A stretch of 38,962 nucleotides of DNA, taken from contig NVSU01000011.1 in NCBI GenBank assembly GCA_002401345.1, positions 54 to 39,015 of the forward strand, given 5' to 3'. The notes beneath the pieces were generated by a model. The model searched no databases. It was not told the origin of the DNA and saw only the letters and a program-made list of their open reading frames with translations. The translations under genes and the position numbers were made by a program. Of the stretch, positions 5,706 to 28,035 are shown in pieces. Within the stretch, counting starts at the first letter, position 1; each line of letters starts with the position of its first letter. Origin of the DNA: Candidatus Wolfebacteria bacterium. GTDB taxonomy: Bacteria > Patescibacteriota > Minisyncoccia > Phycocordibacterales > NVSU01.

Positions 5706-6479
5706 TATTGTATATACTTTTCCTTACGTATGAATAAATTTAAACAACTAGGACGGACAAAATAGAAAGTGTTTCGTTTTTTATTTTGTCCGCCTTAGTC
5801 GGCGGATTTTTGCTTATATCAATCTGATATAACATACGAATGATCATTAAAAACAACATCCTGTTCCGACCATACTTTTTTGTCTTTTTGTCTAGTAGGT
5901 TGGAAACAGATCATCTCCTTTTACAGCGGTGTAAAAGGAGATATATAAATTATATGTAAGTGATTTTTAAGTTTCCTAATAGGAAACAAGAGCATATGGT
6001 GGATGCCTTGACTCTAAAAGGCGATGAAGGACGTGGCTTGGCTGCGATAAGCTTCGGGGAGGTGCCTAGCGACCTTTGATCCGGAGATCTCCGAATGGGG
6101 AAACCTCATCCACTGAAAGTGGATGACTTCGATTTATTTCGAAGAGCGAACCCAGGGAAGTGAAACATCTCAGTACCTGGAGGAACAGAAAACAATGTCA
6201 CCTAGTGACGACATTCCCTAAGTAGCGGCGAGCGAAAAGGGAGGAGCCCAAACCCATCACTTCGGTGGTGGGGGTTGTAAGGTAACAACGTAGTTTTACT
6301 AGAGAAGTCAAAAAATACAATGTTAGTTGAAGTTGTTGGAAAGCAACGCCAAAGGAGGTGATAGCCCTGTAAGCGAAAACATTGAATCTTCTTTGTTGTT
6401 ATTCTTGAGTATCTCAAGACACGAATAGCTTGAGAGAATCTGCCAGCACTAACTGGTAAGGCTAAATACTTTTAGAGAT

Positions 6480-6518
<39 letters not shown>

Positions 6519-6596
6519 GTCCGATTAGGACAGTGAAATAGACCTGAAACCATATGCTTACAAGTAGTGGGAGTGGGCATCACATTGCATGTGATG

Positions 6597-6680
6597 CCGA
6601 ATTATGAATAAAGAATTATGAATTATGGGGGAAATTTGCTTCGCAAATTTCCCATTCCTGATTCATATTTCATGATTCGG
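6597..6680. repeat. IVS-like hairpin insert in 23S (helix 25 region)
   Basis: CCGAATTATGAATAAAGAATTATGAATTATGGGGGAAATTTGCTTCGCAAATTTCCC...CATGATTCGG; lies where E. coli has GCACGCUUAGGCGUGUGAC. Confidence 0.85.
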
Positions 6681-7210
6681 ACATCATGCGTAGTGTGATG
6701 TCCATGACCGCGTGCCTATTGAAGAATGAGCCAACGAGTTTATATATATTGCTTAGCTAAACCATACAGTGGTGGAGCTCTAGGGAAACCGAGTATTAAT
6801 AGTGCGAAATTTGTAGTATGTATAAGACCCGAAACCAAGTGAGCTTGCCATGAGCAGGGTGAACCCCGCAGAAATGTGGGAGGAGGCCCGAACCGGTTGG
6901 TCGTACAATTCCATCGGATGACTTGTGGTAAGGAGTGAAAAGCTAATCGAACTTGGTAATAGCTGGTTCTCTCCGAAATAGCTTTAGGGCTAGCGTCGTG
7001 TGTACCTTTTGGGGGTAGAGCACTGGAAGGTTTAAATAGGGGGAAACCTCGTTAAACCTATCAAACTCCGAATACCAAAAGTAAATTACGCGGCAGTTAG
7101 ACTACGGGGGCTAAGCTCCGTTAGTCGAAAGGGAAACAGCCCAGATCTCTAGATAAGGTCCCTAAATCTACACTAAGTGCAAACTAAGGATGTGAAATCT
7201 CATAGACAAT

Positions 7211-7254
<44 letters not shown>

Positions 7255-7898
7255 CAGCTCACTGATCAAGAGGTCTCGCGCCGAAAATAATCGGGGCTAA
7301 GTGTAGTACCGAATCTGAGGATTCATGATTACTTCGGTAATTGTGAGTGGTAGGAGAGTATTCCACTCCGCATTGAAGCCAAAGGGGTGACCCATGGTGG
7401 AGCGTGTGGAAGTAAGAATGTTGGCACAAGTAACCGCAACGCGGGTGAGATCCCCGCGCGCCGAAAGACTAAGGTTTCCTTGGCAATGATAATCAACCAA
7501 GGGTTAGTCGGGCCTAAGGCAATGGCGAAAGCCGCAGCCGATGGACACATGGTTAATATTCCATGACTTCTATATTGTTCGATGGGAGGACGGAGTTTAG
7601 TATGTATCGCGTATTATTGGATTTACGTTCGTACTGTAGGGAGGATGTGTAGGAAAATCCGCACATCATTAACTCCGAGCAGCGCGAAAATTCTTCACTT
7701 CGGTGAAGGAAATGATGCAAAGCAAGCTTCCAAGAAAATTCTCTAAGGATAACAATACAGAATCCGTACCGTAAACCAACACAGGTAGTCAGGTCGAGAA
7801 GACCAAGGCGAACGAGTGAGAGGTCCTCAAGGAACTCGGCAAAAAAGCAGCCGTAACTTCGGAATAAGGCTTGCCCGAGCATCTCACTGTCGTGAAAT

Positions 7899-7989
7899 GC
7901 GGAATAATGAAGCATGAAGCAAGAATAATGAAATTAAAATTTGCGAAGCAAATTTTTTATAATTCATAATTCGTTATTCATAATTCTGC
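7899..7989. repeat. IVS-like hairpin insert in 23S (helix 63 region), inverted homologue of 6597-6680
   Basis: Reverse complement GAATTATGAATAACGAATTATGAATTATAAAAAATTTGCTTCGCAAATTT nearly matches 6599-6650. Confidence 0.85.
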
Positions 7990-8193
7990 AACGAACGAGA
8001 GTGAGATGCTTGGGCCGCAGCGAAAGTATCCCTGGCGACTGTTTATCAAAAACACAGCTCCCTGCGAACTAGTAATAGGATGTATAGGGGGTGACGCCTG
8101 ACCAATGCCAGAAGGTTAAATACGGGGGGTGCGTATCTCAGTATTCATAATTATTGTGAACACTGAGATGCGTGCTGATCTGTATAAGCCCTG

Positions 8194-8228
<35 letters not shown>

Positions 8229-8421
8229 TTACTACGTTTACAATTTGTAAGTGTAGTGAAGGACTGGGACTGTTATTCAGTGATAAACAGATACGCAAGT
8301 TACCTTCCACACAGTAATGTGTGAGTAGTCCAGTAACGATTAAATAGAGACCAACGTCGTTGCCCTACCTTGAAAAAGGAGGGATAAGATAGAGTCCATG
8401 ATGTGTTTTAAGGAATTCATG
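8229..8421 (+). ncRNA. ORF-less group I intron, L1931-equivalent site in 23S
   Basis: Removing it joins CCTAAGGT|AGCGAAATTCC exactly; R-like AATAGAGACCAACGTCGTTGCCC, S-like AAGATAGAGTCC, P8 CCCTACCTT-GAAA-AAGGAGGG; ends in G. Confidence 0.78.
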
Positions 8422-9084
8422 AGCGAAATTCCTTGTCTGGTAAGTTCAGACGTGCACGAATGGCGTAACGACTGGGGAACTGTCTCGAGGACTTGCTCGG
8501 TGAAAATACAATGCCGGTAAAGATGCCGGCTACCCACAGCTAGACGAAAAGACCCTAGAAGCTTTACTATAGCTTGATATTGGTTATGTTGTTTAACTGC
8601 GTAGAATAGGCGGGAGACTTTGAAGGACAGTTTTTGGATTGTCTGGAGTCGCCAGTGAAATACCGCTCTTTTAGACGGCATACCCTAATCCTTACGGTAA
8701 AAACGTAAAGAGACAGTATCTGGTAGGTAGTTTGTTTGGGGCGAATCCCTCCTAAAGAGTAACGGAGGGGCCTATTAAGGTCAGCTAGGCGCGAATGGAA
8801 ATCGTGCCGATAGTGTAATGGCATAAGCTGGCTTGACTGTAAGACGTACATGTCGAGCAGGTGCGAAAGCAGAGCATAGTGAACTGTTAGTACGCATTAG
8901 ATGCGGCTAACAATCAACGGATAAAAGCTACTCTAGGGATAACAGGCTAGTTCCGCCTAAGAGTTCATATCGACGGCGGAGTTCGGCACCTCGATGTCGG
9001 CTCAACTTATCCTGGGGCTGGAGAAGGTCCCAAGGGTTTGGCTGTTCGCCAATTAAAAAGTTACGCGAGCTGGGTTCAAACCGT

Positions 9085-9367
9085 TCAGGAGCTATAATAA
9101 TGGCTTTTGAATAGTTTGAATCCCTTCGAGATTTTTGTTTATGCAAAAGAAATAGGAACACAACCTTTCACGGCGGTCATAAAGAGTAATCTTTATGTCT
9201 AAAGTTGACTTATATCGGTGAAACCCTGATTAGAATCCAGGGCAATACCGAGGGAATTCATATATTTTTATTATATGAGGCCCGTAGAGACTGAATGTCA
9301 ACCTCCTTTATGTATTAAAGGATGAAGTTACAGTCCGTGCCATGTAGTAATACATGGGAAAATCATG
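9085..9367 (+). ncRNA. ORF-less group I intron, L2593-equivalent site in 23S
   Basis: Exons GGGTTCAAACCGT|CGTGAGACAGG; IGS GCGGT pairs ACCGU with U.G; P3 GTTGAC/GTCAAC, P4 CGGT/ACCG, P5 CCCTG/CAGGG, P7 GACTG/CAGTC, P8 CCTTTA/TAAAGG; S AAGTTACAGTCC; ends in G. Confidence 0.9.
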
Positions 9368-9691
9368 CGTGAGACAGGTTGGTCTCCTATCTGCTGTGGG
9401 CGTTGATTCTTGAGAAGATCTGCTTCTAGTACGAGAGGACCGAAGTGGACTGACCTCTGGTGTATCGGCTGTCGTGCCAACGGCATTGCCGAGTAGCTAT
9501 GTTGGGAATGGATAACCTCTGAAAGCATCTAAGAGGGAAGCCAACTTCAAGATAAGGAATCGTTGAGAATCCTAGGAGATGACTAGGTTGATAGGCTCTA
9601 AGTGTACGCACAGTAATGTGTTCAGCTGAGGAGTACTAATTATTCGATTCCTATTAGGAAACTTGAAAATCACATATAATTAATGATCAAA

Positions 9692-11765: not shown

Positions 11766-11779
11766 AATAATCACATGAA

Positions 11780-11899
11780 TCCCGTTAGAGATCTAAACGT
11801 TATGTATTGGACTTTGTGGAGAATCTACAGATATAATAAAAACAATTAGAATTTATTACGAATTATACGGAAATCTTTGACTTCCTATCTCTAACGGGA
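11780..11899. mobile_element. 120-bp TIR element A (TCCCGTTAGAGAT ends), direct repeat TGAA
   Basis: TCCCGTTAGAGAT...ATCTCTAACGGGA; TGAA at 11776-11779 and 11900-11903; near-identical inverted copy at 27178-27297. Confidence 0.85.
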
Positions 11900-11903
11900 T
11901 GAA

Positions 11904-12023
11904 TCCCGTACGAAATGAATAAGTTATAGATTTGGTCTTGATGTGGTATAAATAATTTACTTTTATTATGAAGAATTATACAAATAATTTGCGGAAATCT
12001 TTGATTTCCTATCTCTAACGGGA
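11904..12023. mobile_element. 120-bp TIR element B, direct repeat TGAA, decayed or chimeric left end
   Basis: TCCCGTACGAAATGAA...GCGGAAATCTTTGATTTCCTATCTCTAACGGGA; flanked by TGAA at 11900-11903 and 12024-12027. Confidence 0.75.
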
Positions 12024-12027
12024 TGAA

Positions 12028-12156
12028 TCCCGTAGTAGAAAATGACATTAGAGAAACATCATATTTTTTATGTATAATATAATTCAGCATTATAATAAAT
12101 TAATAAATCATGACATATATGCTCCACAAGGAGCGATGTCATTTTTCACTACGGGA
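12028..12156. mobile_element. 129-bp second-family element C (TCCCGTAGTAGAAAATGACAT ends)
   Basis: TCCCGTAGTAGAAAATGACAT...ATGTCATTTTTCACTACGGGA flanked by TGAA; last base is the A of the rodA ATG. Confidence 0.8.
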
Positions 12157-13301
12157 TGAATGCTATTAAAAAATCAAAGTTATTTCGTGGAGTAGATTGG
12201 CTCCTCTTTTTTTTCATAGTTCCTCTTCTTGGGGCTGGACTTGTGACAATGAATTCATTTGTGACTACTCAGCTACAGGGTGGTTTTTTTGAGAAGCAAC
12301 TTTTATGGATTGCGCTTTCTTTGATAATCTTTTTTGTATTTTCAACTATTGATTTCAGGTTTTTAAAGCAAACTAATGTACTTGTGACACTTTATTTAAT
12401 TTTTACTGGTTTGTTGTTGTTTCTCTTTGTATTTGGAAGCACTATAAAGGGGGCAACGAGCTGGTTTGATTTAGGTGGATTCTCTTTTCAGCCGTCAGAT
12501 TTGATGAAGTTGATTGTGGTACTGATGTTGGCAAAATATTTTTCCCGTAGACACGTAGAGATAGCCAATGTTAAACATATCTTAGTATCAGGATTATATG
12601 CACTCATTCCTTTCGTATTAGTATTCTTGCAGCCTGATTTTGGATCGGCAGTCGTAATTTTTCTTATTTGGCTCGGTATGGTGATGGTGTCTGGAATATC
12701 AAAGAAACACCTTGCGGTGGTGTTTACGACAGTGGCACTTATTTCAGTATTTCTTTGGTCCTTTGTATTTCAGCCATATCAGAAAGCCCGAATTCAGTCA
12801 TTTATATATCCCCTTACAGACATAAGTGGCACTGGATACAATGCATATCAATCAACTATAGCGGTTGGCTCAGGACAGCTATTGGGCAAGGGAGTTGGAT
12901 ACGGCACACAATCACGACTTCAATTTTTGCCAGAATATGAAACCGACTTTATATTTGCAGCATTCGCTGAAGAGTGGGGCTTTGTCGGCTCGATTCTTGT
13001 GTTTATACTCTATGGACTGGTCATTTGGAGGATTCTCGCTAATGCATTACTAGGAGCGTCCAATTTTGAGATGTTGTATGGAATTGGAGTCGCGATATTT
13101 TTTATGAGCCACATTGTGATAAATATAGGTATGAATATTGGATTGCTGCCCGTCACCGGTATTACACTACCATTTATGAGTTATGGAGGGTCTCATCTCG
13201 TGACAGAATTTGCTGCACTTGGAATTCTTATGGGTATGCGTAATTACAGAAGAAGAACTCATAGAGATGATCTAAAAAATGAATTCTTAGGTATTGAGTA
13301 A
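12156..13301 (+). CDS. rodA: rod shape-determining protein RodA (SEDS family)
   Basis: FQPSDLMKLIVVLMLAKYFS, FLQPDFGSAVVIFLIWLGM, GTGYNAYQSTIAVGSGQLLGKG, LPEYETDFIFAAFAEEWGF, TGITLPFMSYGGSHLV. Confidence 0.95.
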   Translation: MNAIKKSKLFRGVDWLLFFFIVPLLGAGLVTMNSFVTTQLQGGFFEKQLLWIALSLIIFFVFSTIDFRFLKQTNVLVTLYLIFTGLLLFLFVFGSTIKGATSWFDLGGFSFQPSDLMKLIVVLMLAKYFSRRHVEIANVKHILVSGLYALIPFVLVFLQPDFGSAVVIFLIWLGMVMVSGISKKHLAVVFTTVALISVFLWSFVFQPYQKARIQSFIYPLTDISGTGYNAYQSTIAVGSGQLLGKGVGYGTQSRLQFLPEYETDFIFAAFAEEWGFVGSILVFILYGLVIWRILANALLGASNFEMLYGIGVAIFFMSHIVINIGMNIGLLPVTGITLPFMSYGGSHLVTEFAALGILMGMRNYRRRTHRDDLKNEFLGIE

Positions 13302-14848: not shown

Positions 14849-14968
14849 TCCCGTTAGAGATCACAATGTTATATATACGGGAGGAAGTGTAATAGAAAAA
14901 ATAATTAACAATAATTACGATAGGCATGAGTTACACGGAAATGTAATCATTTCCTATCTCTAACGGGA
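14849..14968. mobile_element. 120-bp TIR element D, direct repeat TGAA
   Basis: TCCCGTTAGAGAT...ATCTCTAACGGGA; TGAA at 14845-14848 and 14969-14972; last base is the A of the downstream ATG. Confidence 0.85.
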
Positions 14969-15525
14969 TGAATATAACACTTTTTTATTTTTTAAATGAT
15001 CTTGCATTTAGATCTCCAGTACTTGATGCCCTCATAATATTTTTTGCGACACACTTCGGAACACTATTGTTTGCAGGAGTAATTTTATTTTTAGTTGTCG
15101 AAAAATATCCAAAAGAACATAATCCACTTAGAATAATTAGATTGCGATTAAATAAATTCGCTGTTATTTTTGTGTCTGTAGTAGGGTCATGGGGGGTCGC
15201 AGGATTACTCAAGGAAATCTTGACGGTACCTCGACCATTTTTGTTTCTTGAAAATGTGAAGTTGCTTTTCGAGCATGGTGGCTTTGATTCATTTCCATCA
15301 GGACACGCTACGTTTTTTGCAGCATTGGCCATGGCACTTTACTATTATAATAAGAAATTAGGACTCATTTTTGGTGTGTCGGCACTCATCATTGGAGTAT
15401 CACGAGTGATTGCTGGTGTACATTTTCCAGTTGATATTATCGCAGGTTTTTTCATTGGAATCGTTGGAGCGTGGATAGTGCATCTTATTGCCGTTAAAGT
15501 TGCAAAACTCGAACAAACGCTGTAG
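14968..15525 (+). CDS. PAP2 family phosphatase (undecaprenyl-diphosphatase-like)
   Basis: KEILTVPRPF, FDSFPSGHATFFAALA, GVSRVIAGVHFPVDIIAGFFIG. Confidence 0.9.
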   Translation: MNITLFYFLNDLAFRSPVLDALIIFFATHFGTLLFAGVILFLVVEKYPKEHNPLRIIRLRLNKFAVIFVSVVGSWGVAGLLKEILTVPRPFLFLENVKLLFEHGGFDSFPSGHATFFAALAMALYYYNKKLGLIFGVSALIIGVSRVIAGVHFPVDIIAGFFIGIVGAWIVHLIAVKVAKLEQTL

Positions 15526-21309: not shown

Positions 21310-22041
21310 ATGTTAAAATATATTGCGTTCATTATTTTTATAGTATTGTCGTTAGTGTTTTTCTTGATAGAACCTCTAAGTTCTATCGACCTCAATTTAT
21401 CTAGTACGTTTCTCACCATCGCCACATTCTTATTTGCTATCTTTGCGGGCTTTTTTATTTCTCGTCAGGGGACACGGTATAGCACTATCAGGGACCAAAT
21501 TACCACATTTGATGGATCGATGTCAGCTATATTTCGCTTCTTTGGACATTTGGGTACTGAACCCCAAGAAGAGGCGAGGGGAATTATCAAATATCATTAT
21601 GAAACTATTTTAAAAGAGAAAGCGTGGGATTATCATTTTGTACACAAGTCTACAACTATCTCGTCGATGCATGATCTCCTTGAACGTGTAGTTGGAGACC
21701 ACACACTGCCGAGTCTCCGTAACTTTGCGCTACAGAGAATTCTTTTTAATTTGAGAATACTACAGGTGACACGGAAAAGTATGATTGCGCTTCATACTGA
21801 GAGAATTCCACGTTTTCAGTGGATGTTGATCATCTTCCTCGCAGCTATTTTATTGGTGGCGGTATCGCTTATCCCTTCTTTTCATAATGTACTCGGGGCA
21901 ATTTTAAAAGGTGCGTTTGGCAGCGCAGTGATTTTTGTGCTTATTCTGCTAAGTGAGTTTGATAAACTTAAATTCTTTGAAGGAACAATAGGAGAGCGAT
22001 CAGCTCAAGATATTTTAGATATTTTCAGCGGTAAAAAATAA
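21310..22041 (+). CDS. membrane protein, DUF4239-like topology
   Basis: 243 aa with TM helices at both ends. Confidence 0.55.
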   Translation: MLKYIAFIIFIVLSLVFFLIEPLSSIDLNLSSTFLTIATFLFAIFAGFFISRQGTRYSTIRDQITTFDGSMSAIFRFFGHLGTEPQEEARGIIKYHYETILKEKAWDYHFVHKSTTISSMHDLLERVVGDHTLPSLRNFALQRILFNLRILQVTRKSMIALHTERIPRFQWMLIIFLAAILLVAVSLIPSFHNVLGAILKGAFGSAVIFVLILLSEFDKLKFFEGTIGERSAQDILDIFSGKK

Positions 22042-22124
22042 AACAATACTAAAAGGTAGACTTTGACAAATGGTGGTTTTTAATGTACACTGAAATCAGA
22101 AAATAGTTGATAATTAAATACAGA

Positions 22125-22736
22125 ATGAGTATGAAAGATCAGAGAACAACACCCGAAAAGATTCTACTTGTGACTGAAAAGATTGAAATGATTATTTATC
22201 CGAAAGAAGATGACCTGCTGTATAATGGCAAATCAATTCTGAAACTTTTTAAGGAAGCGTCACTGTGTTTACCTGAAGAGATTCAAAAATTAGCAATACA
22301 AGCATTTCCTCGGTATGTAGCATCACCCATTATTCTTGACGTCTTTGAAGACTTTGTTGATCCTGCTGTTCGAGATGCTCAACGGTATGATTTTGAGAAG
22401 ACATTACAAAAGGAGGGACTTATGGATGCATATGAGTTTTATAGAAGCAATAAACTGAGAAGAACACACATAAGCAATGTGCTTGTCATGTTTCCTCTCA
22501 TACATAAGACTATTGGAATAAATGATTTACTTCCAATAAGGCTCATTAGTAGAATTCATTCTCTCATATCAAGTAATCCAACTGTTGATAGAGAAAAAAA
22601 GGTATATAGGTTTGATAACTACGAAATGAAACTTTCTTTAAGGGAAAAACTTAAGGTTATCGAGTTTACTTCACAGTTAGCGTATACAGTATGTGTGCAT
22701 GTGATCGAGTACCATCAAAAACAGAATAAAAGTTAA
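22125..22736 (+). CDS. hypothetical protein
   Basis: MSMKDQRTTPEKILLVTEKIEM...; internal ATG used rather than the upstream TTG at 22107. Confidence 0.6.
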   Translation: MSMKDQRTTPEKILLVTEKIEMIIYPKEDDLLYNGKSILKLFKEASLCLPEEIQKLAIQAFPRYVASPIILDVFEDFVDPAVRDAQRYDFEKTLQKEGLMDAYEFYRSNKLRRTHISNVLVMFPLIHKTIGINDLLPIRLISRIHSLISSNPTVDREKKVYRFDNYEMKLSLREKLKVIEFTSQLAYTVCVHVIEYHQKQNKS

Positions 22737-23953: not shown

Positions 23954-24027
23954 TCCCGTAGTAGAAAACAGTACATTCTGGGAATAAAATACATATGTAA
24001 ACTGTGATTCTGTTTTTCACTACGGGA
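23954..24027. mobile_element. 74-bp second-family element F, direct repeat TCAA
   Basis: TCCCGTAGTAGAAAACAG...CTGTTTTTCACTACGGGA; TCAA at 23950-23953 and 24028-24031. Confidence 0.8.
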
Positions 24028-24062: not shown

Positions 24063-27047
24063 ATGTTAGAAAAGGCTTTTAATGATTATTATAAAATACT
24101 CAATAAAGAGCAGCGATTGGCTGTAGATACTATTGAGGGTCCTGTGATGGTAGTTGCAGGTCCTGGAACAGGTAAAACACAGATTTTGACACTTAGAATT
24201 GCTAACATATTACGAAAAACAGATGTCGATCCAGAAAATATTCTCGCACTTACATTCACTGAGTCAGGAGTTCATAGTATGAGAAAACGTTTAGCTAAGA
24301 TAATTGGAAGTAGAGCATATGCAGTTGAGATAAATACATTTCATGGATTTTGTAATGACGTGATCAAAAAGTATCCTGAGGAGTTCCCAAGGATTATCGG
24401 TTCCACACACATTAGTGAAGTTGATCAAATTAAAATTATTGAAGAAATTATAATGGAGTTACCACTTCAATATCTTAGGCCATTTGGAGATCAAATGTTT
24501 TATGTTCGATCAATTATCTCTTCAATTAATAATTTAAAAAGAGAAGGAGTTTCACCTGATGAGTTTTCTACTATCATTGCAAAGGAAATTGAGTCATTTG
24601 ATTTGATCTCTGATCTCTATCATGAGAAGGGGGCGTATAAAGATCAGATGAAGGGAGAATATCAAAAGCTTCAGAAAAAAATTTCCAAAAATAGCGAACT
24701 CAGCGAAGCGTATAAGAAGTATCAAGAGAAGTTGCAAGTACAAAGACTCTATGATTACAGTGACATGATCATTGAGGTATTGAGAGCGTTATCAGAAAAT
24801 AAAGATCTACTACTCATCCTTCAAGAAGAGCATCAATATATTTTGGTTGACGAACATCAAGATACAAATAATGCACAAAACAAAATAATGGAATTACTTG
24901 CAAGTTTTCATGATAATCCAAACATTTTTGTTGTAGGAGATGAGAAGCAGGCAATTTTTCGATTTCAAGGAGCTTCTGTAGAAAATTTTAATCGAATAAA
25001 AAATTTACATAAAAATGTATCAGTTGTCACACTTAAAAATAATTATAGATCATCTCAGAATATCTTAGATGCATCACACTCACTTTTAAAGGGCGATGAG
25101 GCACTTGTGTCTGGTAAGGTATCTCAGGGTACTAATGAAAAAATAAATCTCTATTCATTTGGCAGGGCAGAAGTGGAACATTATTTTATTGCACGTGATG
25201 TTGGCGAAAAAATCTCTCAAGGAGTTCAACCGCAGGAAATTGCCATTTTATATAGAAATAATAAGGATGCATTTGCTATAGCTAAAAGCCTTAGTGTACA
25301 GAACATTTCTTATTCCATTGAATCGGATCAGGATTTATTTACAGATTCAGATATTCGCAAAATTCTCATTTTACTTCAAATTATAAATTCATTTGGAGAT
25401 GAAGAATCCCTCTCTCAAGTACTTCATATTGATTTTCTTGGGATTGATCCATTGGATGTATACAAAATGGTGAAGTATGGTCGAGAACATTCGATACCTC
25501 TTTTCGATATTATTAAATCATCTTCCATGCTTGCAAAAGTTGGAGTGGAGTCTGAAAAAGAAATACGATCATTATATAAAAAACTCTCCAAGCTTGTAAC
25601 TATTAGTAAGAATAGTGATGTAACTACTTTTTTTGAACACTTCATTCAGGATTCAGGTTTTCTTGCATATATACTTGGGAAAGACGCTATTTCAGATAGA
25701 TTTGATGTGCTCAATAGTTTCTTCGCTGAAGTGAAGTCAATAGTTGAAACGCATCCGGATGCAAAACTCGCTGACTTTATGAATTATTTAAATACGCTTA
25801 GCTCACATGGTATTTTAATAAAAAAAAGAGGGGATGGACGAAATGAAAATTCAGTTCGACTTATGACAGTTCATAAATCAAAGGGCCAAGAGTTTGATTA
25901 TGTCTATATTGTAGGGGCGTACAATGGGCATTTTGGTAATAAGAGAAAAGTGAATCCACTAGAGATTTTACCGAGCGTATTTTCTAATGAGGTTTCAGAT
26001 TCTAAAAATAATAATGATGATGAGCGCAGACTGTTTTATGTTGCACTGACTCGCGCACGAGAAGGTATTTCATTAACATATACGAGGCAGAGTGATTCGG
26101 GAAAAGAACAATTACCATCACAATTTATAGAAGAAATTGATTCGGATTATATTAGCGTTGTTGATACGAGTGCAATAGAGCAAGAATATTATGATGATAC
26201 AGGAAGGAATTTCCCCGCTCCAGCAGAGGACGATGGAGAGAAAGATGTGTCTAATAAAGAATTGATCGCTGAATTATTTATAAAGAATGGTTTATCTGTA
26301 ACAGCTATAAATAATTATTTAACGTGTCCATGGAGATATTTTTATAATAACCTTATTCGTATTCCCCGGACATTCACAAAACACCAACTCTATGGAACTG
26401 CAATTCATAATACACTTGAGTCATTTTTTGAAAAACAAAAAGAAAATGAAGTGAGCAAAGAGACACTCATTGAAATGTTTATTCATTCTTTAAGTACACA
26501 GCCACTTACAAAGAACGACCATAAGGAAGTACTTGAAAAAGGGAAGCGAGCGCTTGATGGATATTATGATGCGTATAGTGCGTCTTGGAATTCAAATTTA
26601 CTTACAGAATTTTATATTAAGGGTGTGCTTTTAACACCTGATATACGTTTAACTGGAAAGATAGATAAAATAGAATTTCTTGATGATTCAAATAAGGCAC
26701 TTGTTATAGATTACAAAACAAAGAAGCCTGTATCGCGGCGTGAAATTGAAGGTCAGACAAAAAAAGGTAATGGAGACCTAAAACGACAACTGGTCTTTTA
26801 TAAACTTCTACTTGATAGATATGAGAATGGTAAATATGATATGAAGTATGGAGTTATAGATTTTATAGAACCCAATGAGAGAGGGAAGTATAAGAAGGAA
26901 GAATTTGAGATTACTGATGATGAAGTGATTGATCTTGAACACACAATAAAAAAAATCTCCGAAGAGATCTTATCATTATCATTTTGGGATACTCGATGTG
27001 GCGATAAAGAATGTGAATATTGTTCACTTCGAGAGTTAATGAAATAA
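24063..27047 (+). CDS. UvrD/Rep-like superfamily 1 helicase fused to a C-terminal PD-(D/E)XK (Fe-S type) nuclease domain
   Basis: Walker A VAGPGTGKTQILTLRIANIL, QYILVDEHQDTN, VGDEKQAIFRFQGA, RLMTVHKSKGQEFDYV; C-term GTAIHNTLE, KIDKIEF...LVIDYKTKKP, CGDKECEYC. Confidence 0.93.
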   Translation: MLEKAFNDYYKILNKEQRLAVDTIEGPVMVVAGPGTGKTQILTLRIANILRKTDVDPENILALTFTESGVHSMRKRLAKIIGSRAYAVEINTFHGFCNDVIKKYPEEFPRIIGSTHISEVDQIKIIEEIIMELPLQYLRPFGDQMFYVRSIISSINNLKREGVSPDEFSTIIAKEIESFDLISDLYHEKGAYKDQMKGEYQKLQKKISKNSELSEAYKKYQEKLQVQRLYDYSDMIIEVLRALSENKDLLLILQEEHQYILVDEHQDTNNAQNKIMELLASFHDNPNIFVVGDEKQAIFRFQGASVENFNRIKNLHKNVSVVTLKNNYRSSQNILDASHSLLKGDEALVSGKVSQGTNEKINLYSFGRAEVEHYFIARDVGEKISQGVQPQEIAILYRNNKDAFAIAKSLSVQNISYSIESDQDLFTDSDIRKILILLQIINSFGDEESLSQVLHIDFLGIDPLDVYKMVKYGREHSIPLFDIIKSSSMLAKVGVESEKEIRSLYKKLSKLVTISKNSDVTTFFEHFIQDSGFLAYILGKDAISDRFDVLNSFFAEVKSIVETHPDAKLADFMNYLNTLSSHGILIKKRGDGRNENSVRLMTVHKSKGQEFDYVYIVGAYNGHFGNKRKVNPLEILPSVFSNEVSDSKNNNDDERRLFYVALTRAREGISLTYTRQSDSGKEQLPSQFIEEIDSDYISVVDTSAIEQEYYDDTGRNFPAPAEDDGEKDVSNKELIAELFIKNGLSVTAINNYLTCPWRYFYNNLIRIPRTFTKHQLYGTAIHNTLESFFEKQKENEVSKETLIEMFIHSLSTQPLTKNDHKEVLEKGKRALDGYYDAYSASWNSNLLTEFYIKGVLLTPDIRLTGKIDKIEFLDDSNKALVIDYKTKKPVSRREIEGQTKKGNGDLKRQLVFYKLLLDRYENGKYDMKYGVIDFIEPNERGKYKKEEFEITDDEVIDLEHTIKKISEEILSLSFWDTRCGDKECEYCSLRELMK

Positions 27048-27066
27048 AAAGTTGAATCTAGTAGCG

Positions 27067-27156
27067 TTATATCTTATCAAGCACTCCTAAATAGTATCCG
27101 AGTGCAGCAAATACCAACAAAAGTATGAAGGCTATGATTTTCTCGTGTGTTCTCAT
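27067..27156 (-). CDS. possible 29-aa single-TM peptide
   Basis: MRTHEKIIAFILLLVFAALGYYLGVLDKI*. Confidence 0.35.
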   Translation of the reverse strand: MRTHEKIIAFILLLVFAALGYYLGVLDKI

Positions 27157-27177
27157 ATTCAAAGTATACAGGATGTA

Positions 27178-27297
27178 TCCCGTTAGAGATAGGAAGTCAA
27201 AGATTTCCGTATAATGTGTAATAAATCCTAATTGTTTTTATTATATCTGTAGATTCTCCATAAAGTCCAGTACATAACGTTTAGATCTCTAACGGGA
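27178..27297. mobile_element. 120-bp TIR element E, inverted copy of element A, direct repeat TGTA
   Basis: Reverse complement differs from 11780-11899 at 5 positions by eye; TGTA at 27174-27177 and 27298-27301. Confidence 0.92.
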
Positions 27298-27336
27298 TGT
27301 ACTTTGTTTTTAAAATGATATAATAATCAAATATCT

Positions 27337-28035
27337 ATGGAAAATAATGATAAAAAAGGGCATCTTCACCCGTTAACACAGGTTATGCAGGAAGTTACTA
27401 CTATTTTTGGGGAAATGGGATTTTCTATTGAAGTAGGTCCAGAAATTGAAGACGAATGGCATAATTTCGATGCACTCAATGTTCCCAAGGATCATCCGGC
27501 ACGTGACATGCAAGATACTTTTTTTGTAAAAGGTAAGAAAGAGACAGTCATGAGAACACATACATCACCTGTGCAGATTCACTACATGCAGGAACACGAA
27601 CCCCCAATCAAAATTATTGTTCCTGGAAAAGTATTTAGACACGAAGCGACCGATGCAACTCATGAAGCTCAATTTCATCAAATAGAGGGATTATATGTAG
27701 ACAAGGATGTTTCAATTGCACATTTGAAAGGTATCCTTTTGGAATTTTTTAAAAGGTTTTTAGGTGAAGAAGTTGAGATACGACTCCGTCCGGGGTATTT
27801 TCCATTTGTAGAACCTGGCGTTGAGGTGGATTTGAAATTTAAAGGGAAGTGGCTAGAAGTGCTCGGTGCAGGGATGGTACATCCAAATGTATTAAAAAAT
27901 GTAAATATAGATCCGGAAAAATATAAAGGACTTGCATTTGGTATTGGTCTCGATCGACTTATGATGATGAAATATAACATTCCGGATGTTCGACTTTCGT
28001 ATGAAGGAGATCTTCGGTTTGTTAATCAATTTTAA
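27337..28035 (+). CDS. pheS: phenylalanine--tRNA ligase alpha subunit, lacking N-terminal coiled coil
   Basis: [77 protein letters not shown]. Confidence 0.95.

Follow-up and report, generated by a model that had tools for sequence, protein, structure and literature searches.

The window, by which we mean the whole 38,962-nt stretch of Candidatus Wolfebacteria DNA that was analysed, carries two nearly identical 120-bp units in opposite orientations, and the copy upstream of pheS raises the question of whether this unit is mobile and, if so, what moves it. The original prediction held that the two units match over their full length with about five mismatches, that they are flanked by different duplicated tetramers, and that the unit therefore transposes, unless the homology were found to run past the element ends. 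Pairwise alignment of the reverse complement of 27178-27297 with 11780-11899 gave 115/120 identities without gaps, the exactly five mismatches falling at element positions 28, 37, 71, 81 and 82. Both copies end in arms, TCCCGTTAGAGAT and ATCTCTAACGGGA, that are complementary at 13/13 positions, and the flanking tetramers are TGTA/TGTA at the pheS-proximal copy and TGAA/TGAA at its partner. Homology did not continue past the ends, since flank identity was only 24/60 and 23/60. A mild similarity (12/20) outside the right ends (27156-27177 versus 11900-11921) fades to 17/40 over 40 bases, and in a repeat search of the window the inverted pair could be extended to 143 nt at 91%. The precise TIRs, the site-varying 4-bp duplication, the absence of sustained flank homology and the bimodal lengths described below bear out the view that the 120-bp unit transposes, as does, for a 280-bp form, an empty site in sister genomes.

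The start of pheS lies 36 nt past the right TGTA. Because a TATAAT, the putative pheS promoter, is positioned in between (at 27320), the insertion is situated upstream of the likely promoter. The copy is antisense, with its CCT-end directed away from pheS, and its ATGTA begins no gene; it thus represents a minority type that is both antisense and off the start codon. As ATGTA still fits the ATGNA target described below, this copy suggests that the sequence preference is exerted on the DNA itself, start codon or not.

Table 1. Elements, target duplications and neighbouring genes in the window.
Feature	Coordinates	Strand	Evidence
120-bp element, perfect 13-bp TIRs	27178..27297	-	sequence, alignment
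Left 4-bp target duplication TGTA; preceding A gives ATGTA	27174..27177		sequence
Right 4-bp target duplication TGTA	27298..27301		sequence
pheS	27337..28035	+	PF01409, 9e-99
UvrD-type helicase with PD-(D/E)XK nuclease domain, upstream neighbour of the 27178-27297 element	24063..27047	+	domain search
Element A, 120 bp, 13/13 TIRs	11780..11899	+	alignment
TGAA duplication left of element A	11776..11779		sequence
TGAA right of element A, doubling as left duplication of the next element	11900..11903		sequence
Second element of tandem chain, mixed arms TCCCGTACGAAAT / ATCTCTAACGGGA (10/13), TSD TGAA	11904..12023	+	
Third chain element, 129 bp, TCCCGTAGTAGAAAA..TTTTCACTACGGGA type, TSD TGAA	12028..12156	+	
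FtsW/RodA/SpoVE gene, start codon invaded	12156..13301	+	PF01098, 1e-90
120-bp element, TSD TGAA, last A = A of the next gene's ATG	14849..14968	+	
PAP2 phosphatase gene, start codon invaded	14968..15525	+	PF01569
74-bp short member, TCCCGTAGTAGAAAA..TTTTTCACTACGGGA, TSD TCAA, upstream of the helicase gene, off its start codon	23954..24027		

The window contains further copies (Table 1). The third element of the tandem chain contributes its last A to the ATG of the FtsW/RodA/SpoVE gene, and the element that invades the PAP2 gene contains a 39-codon open frame, MNPVRDHNVIYTGG...SYL, which ends 4 nt ahead of that gene's ATG. The elements at 12028-12156 and 23954-24027 constitute a second family, which has the same TCCCGTA ends as the first but a different interior (TCCCGTAGTAGAAAA..TTTTTCACTACGGGA). 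Its copies are of full or reduced length; one of the two lies at a start codon and the other does not. The 0.9-Mb genome (assembly of 897 kb in 24 contigs, 92% complete) holds about 20 copies, one of which, 120 bp long, sits at the start codon of leuS. A DNA search of this genome returned 24 matches, among which five covered nearly the whole element with 82-100% identity (E 1e-28 to 1e-62), and the 12-base arm occurred 38 times as compared with 0 for a backward control pattern; chance is therefore excluded. Nesting, in which one family member lies inside another, was seen at two loci (L189, 1619-1706, and L239, 1676-1862).

To define the target, we drew on a scan in which 85,488 species were represented by one genome each and the search pattern did not require ATG. 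Of the copies analysed among the matches listed, 75/84 form an ATG from the last A of the element and the TG of the duplicated target, a gene (murG, topA, rpmI, frr and others) opens directly from the element in 72/84, and in 5 more the gene start is on the opposite side, that is, the insertion is antisense. Identical 4-bp duplications, nearly all TGNA, flank 61/84 of these copies. The duplications seen were TGAA, TGGA, TGTA, TGCA, TGAG and CGAA, with both flanks varying together, and the arms were identical in 150/185 tabulated elements, across 17 different arm sequences. Over 102 sites the target logo was ATG[A/G]A with nothing else save a weak preceding TATAAT, and the fourth duplicated base was A in 94/102. 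Within the window, ATGNA occurs 45 times outside starts versus 14 times at starts, and the start-codon bias thus reflects either targeting or very strong selection. A minority of copies, the one near pheS among them, lie off start codons.

The lineage-labelled records among the matches listed in the 85,488-species scan were all from Parcubacteria/Patescibacteria (Kaiser-, Nomura-, Yanofsky-, Taylor-, Harrison-, Lloyd-, Zambryskibacteria and others), the remaining records being titled just "bacterium". With a stricter pattern that ends in ATG, applied to a draw of 294 genomes of the phylum, the element was present in the source genome, in 0/11 order relatives, in 2/12 other class members outside the order and in 2 of about 270 genomes of other classes. 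A looser pattern found it in 10/40 order relatives, all from other families and at least two by weak single matches. Order relatives also carry start-codon copies, at topA (three), ssb (two, with TGTA), rpmI, gatC, murG and adk. Viral contigs gave 0 matches to the element pattern. Among the class-wide loci, the same genes (topA, murG, rpmI and an RNase-J-like gene) were invaded recurrently in distant genomes, for which chance or old inherited insertions are candidate readings.

Direct evidence of insertion at a start codon comes from frr, which is filled in one species (...aatttaatcacATGA, the 280-bp element, then ATGATAGATTTC) and empty in two other species of the genus (...aatttaatttcATGATTGATTTT and ...aatttaatatcATGATAGATTTT). 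The upstream flank is clearly homologous up to the junction across the three genomes. This case, a long copy, is the one clean filled/empty comparison; no synteny was seen in sister genomes at the sites of a short copy at a phosphoesterase-like gene and of a long copy at a nucleotidyltransferase gene, and the genus of G276 yielded no clean case. At another locus (L394/L395, about 1380-1550), the left flank of a short element is an approximately 50-bp second copy of the invaded gene's start, encoding nearly the same peptide (MKLLIFGDVFGKLGR) from DNA that is just 36/50 identical. Such a flank points to recombination with a divergent allele, either at the time of insertion or later.

What, then, might move the 120-bp unit? 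One long form, a 280-bp element at murG (L190, 164-443), has the same TIRs and duplication and contains a complete GIY-YIG nuclease frame. In a class-wide protein search, 25 of the best 30 GIY-YIG loci were inside 273-282-bp elements with 12-13/13 TIRs. Full-length copies, 276-284 bp, consist of the TIRs and a single gene for a nuclease of about 95 aa, the sole protein that they encode, and its GIY-YIG domain was recognized in Pfam (PF01541, 2.6e-16 and 7.6e-16, the latter for the copy in the source genome). That copy lies on contig C11 (about 21960-22239, TSD TGAA) directly behind leuS and ahead of a putative murJ-like gene; no second autonomous candidate was found within the window. Lengths fall into two peaks, at 110-129 bp (192 copies) and 270-289 bp (41 copies), with few copies of 50-89 bp. 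Beyond the TIR, the ends of short and long copies show a modest similarity, given here without a shuffle baseline. A structure predicted from the nuclease sequence alone was of low quality (pLDDT 57). The nearest solved structures by sequence are UPF0213 GIY-YIG proteins (PDB 1zg2 and 1ywl, E 5e-7 and 4e-3), which are entered as hypothetical proteins with no mobility described there.

Where the left duplication is intact, in copies of 280 and 277 bp, the nuclease frame starts at the target's duplicated ATG (MNPVRD...). It has no stop codon of its own; it reads through the right TIR (...FLSLTG) and ends on a TGA, the TG(A) of which is supplied by the target ATGA and overlaps the regenerated start of the host gene. 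All 30/30 long copies at an ATG have TGA as the target stop, as compared with 51/72 short copies (Fisher p = 3e-4), the other 21/72 having TGG, TGC or TGT there. A requirement for the target's stop in the long copies alone would predict this difference. Two other classes of GIY-YIG element were also encountered. Those at L311, L325, L333 and L338 have CCCCGTTAG..CTAACGGGG arms, do not rebuild the ATG, and have flanks that look inverted (TTCA..TAAA/TGAA) and not duplicated. Those at L292, L301, L307 and L379 have arms of the CCCTGTTAAATAA..TTATTTAACAGGG type, again without a regenerated ATG, and their frames end in YLTG or YFTG at the arm.

An insertion of this kind leaves the original promoter and the original ATG upstream of the element. 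TAnnnT was found 4-8 nt before the original ATG in 45/115 left flanks versus 16 in a control position, and SD-like tetramers were depleted (4 versus 15 in the control). Shine-Dalgarno initiation at the left ATG was rejected for this latter reason, and the two results together make the invaded genes look leaderless. Reading frames were then counted in 111 non-redundant short copies and in dinucleotide shuffles of these. An ATG-initiated frame of at least 20 codons with its TAA 4 nt before the regenerated ATG (TAA-CGGG-ATG) is present in 53% of short copies, the shuffle expectation being 9.5 ± 2.5%. The frame ends on an overlapping TGA in 16% (9.0 ± 2.7% in shuffles) and is fused in-frame to the gene in 0% (5% in shuffles); about a third of the short copies have no such open frame. 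The encoded peptides have no codon-position bias, with mismatches of 268/257/256 at the three positions, and selection on the peptide itself was rejected for want of such a signal. Because the codon positions mutate equally, it is the open frame that is conserved and not the peptide. We infer that termination-reinitiation would keep the invaded gene expressed. The elements are also predicted to adopt a stable fold (z -3.4 to -4.6) that is closed by the TIR helix and may be of use at the DNA or the RNA stage.

These observations lead us to propose that the 120-bp unit is probably a non-autonomous, MITE-like derivative of a GIY-YIG element that settles at start codons and lets translation of the invaded gene go on through termination-reinitiation. 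The target would be the pentamer ATGNA, chiefly where the ATG is the start codon of a gene, and the 4-bp TGNA would be duplicated on insertion. Since the element ends in ...CGGGA and the duplicated target begins with TG, the final A together with this TG would rebuild an ATG ahead of the gene. The GIY-YIG frame could begin on the target's duplicated ATG, and as it terminates at the TGA within the target's ATGA, the host gene would restart by ATGA-type termination-reinitiation. Copies of 113-129 bp would be internally deleted derivatives moved in trans. Most of them retain a short open frame that stops 4 nt ahead of the regenerated ATG or overlaps it, which would allow the invaded gene still to be translated.

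The TIRs, site-varying duplications, start-codon targeting, ATG regeneration and GIY-YIG frame with its target-supplied stop, together with the filled and empty frr sites, are shown directly by the sequences. Beyond this, we infer that a staggered cut by the GIY-YIG protein sets both forms in motion, and the short copies presumably descend from the long ones. The GIY-YIG homing enzymes characterised so far produce 2-nt 3' extensions (PMC2988022), and how these would fit the 4-bp duplication seen here is not obvious. On balance, we favour the broader view that these elements form a new class: a GIY-YIG element of less than 300 bp that would take the start codons of essential genes as its target, use the host promoter and ATG together with the target's stop, return a working ATG by termination-reinitiation, and have trans-mobilised 120-bp derivatives across the Parcubacteria.

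One could envision alternative scenarios for the origin of the 120-bp unit. It might be an ordinary MITE moved by a conventional DDE transposase, the autonomous copy of which is missing from an assembly that is just 92% complete, with the GIY-YIG gene being a passenger or a homing gene. TIRs combined with a short TSD are indeed the classical DDE signature. We think, however, that this is unlikely, as no other gene was found between these TIRs among the examined loci, the long forms are filled entirely by the GIY-YIG frame, and the target is non-palindromic and bound to the start codon. A DDE transposase partner with these TIRs was likewise absent from the examined loci, where the GIY-YIG nuclease was the sole partner found. 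Another candidate for the mover is encoded in the window, where a RAYT-type Y1 transposase (1209-1850) lies within 1171-1890 with the palindrome ACTTAGACGTCSGACGTCTAAGT on both sides; a third copy of ACTTAGACGTCSGACGTCTAAGT lies within the RAYT reading frame and leaves it open. Single-strand transposition by this enzyme might disperse the elements in the manner of a BIME, and PF01797 was present in 11/11 genomes that match the element pattern versus 15/30 that do not; the elements also form hairpins, with the z-scores given above. The RAYT gene, however, has its own flanking palindrome, which is unrelated to the dispersed elements, and Y1 transposition produces no target duplication, whereas the flanks here vary together. 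This explanation is very improbable.

The position immediately 5' of coding sequence, the strong predicted fold closed by the TIR helix and the conserved open frame would all suit a cis-regulatory RNA leader fixed at many start codons. Such a leader would not be mobile. It is contradicted by the empty frr sites and fits poorly with duplications that differ from site to site, with antisense copies and tandem chains, with a copy 96% identical at an unrelated site and with versions that encode a nuclease; we attach hardly any weight to it. In Rfam, no family matched 27000-27400 at E<=1, and at the gathering threshold the elements of the window were likewise without a match. Segmental duplication or recombination of a longer inverted block could account for the reach of the inverted pair to 143 nt and for the 12/20 similarity outside one end, but the flanks are at background past 20 nt (24/60 and 23/60) and each copy has its own duplication, making this the least credible of the readings considered.

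Bacterial mobile elements normally survive by staying out of essential genes. The element described here settles in the start codons of such genes and appears to preserve their function. Should the GIY-YIG protein prove to be the mover, this would be, as far as the open-access literature shows, the first TIR/TSD element driven by the GIY-YIG family, and it would be among the smallest autonomous elements known. Many predicted small proteins of Parcubacteria of the MNPVRD...LSLTG type would then be explained, and the annotation of start sites and operons would be affected in a very large uncultured group. The element also offers a candidate for a compact start-codon insertion tool. No account of GIY-YIG elements that are bounded by TIRs and target start codons came up in the open-access literature searched, which covered few subscription journals and no preprints.

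The nearest reports from the same bacteria concern insertions in CPR rRNA genes (PMC11270868). Some contain GIY-YIG frames and are unlike group I/II introns, and their spread by homing was doubted; others are uncharacterised, ORF-less and mostly shorter than 200 bp (PMC11270868). These are sited in rRNA genes, and neither "inverted repeat" nor "start codon" occurs in the text of that report; likened by description, they may be of the same kind as the elements studied here. As a separate observation, the 23S rRNA gene of the window (5976-9659) exceeds the model by about 760 nt; it contains a group I intron (9157-9357) and a pair of long, imperfect inverted repeats (6595-6678 / 7873-8015).

Among characterised systems, the free-standing T4 homing genes SegA-SegG likewise consist of a small GIY-YIG nuclease alone, which is intergenic, intron-free and co-transcribed with its neighbours (PMC2988022). 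Each Seg gene, however, has one cognate locus and depends on recombination between homologous flanks (PMC2988022), whereas the elements here have perfect TIRs and site-varying 4-bp duplications, occupy dozens of unrelated genes in each lineage, include non-autonomous derivatives and take a stop codon from the target. Homing endonucleases are defined by a single cognate site; these elements occupy many unrelated genes per genome, with flanks that are unrelated except for ATGNA. REP/RAYT repeats are likewise small, palindromic and dispersed by a tiny enzyme of the same genome, but they have no target duplication and their sequences differ from those of the elements here, and the palindrome ACTTAGACGTCSGACGTCTAAGT at the RAYT gene is unrelated to the dispersed elements. 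The resemblance to RUP, Correia, ERIC and similar bacterial MITEs extends to a length of 100-130 bp, TIRs, a short TSD, high copy number, the lack of genes and a predicted hairpin. Known MITEs are matched by an IS of the DDE type, and most of their insertions are at TA or between genes. The elements here have a GIY-YIG partner instead, and more than 85% of the copies analysed among the matches listed lie exactly on start codons. The element thus combines MITE-like behaviour with homing-endonuclease-like content and departs from each in a defining respect: the only partner found among the examined loci is not a DDE enzyme, and the site is not one cognate locus.
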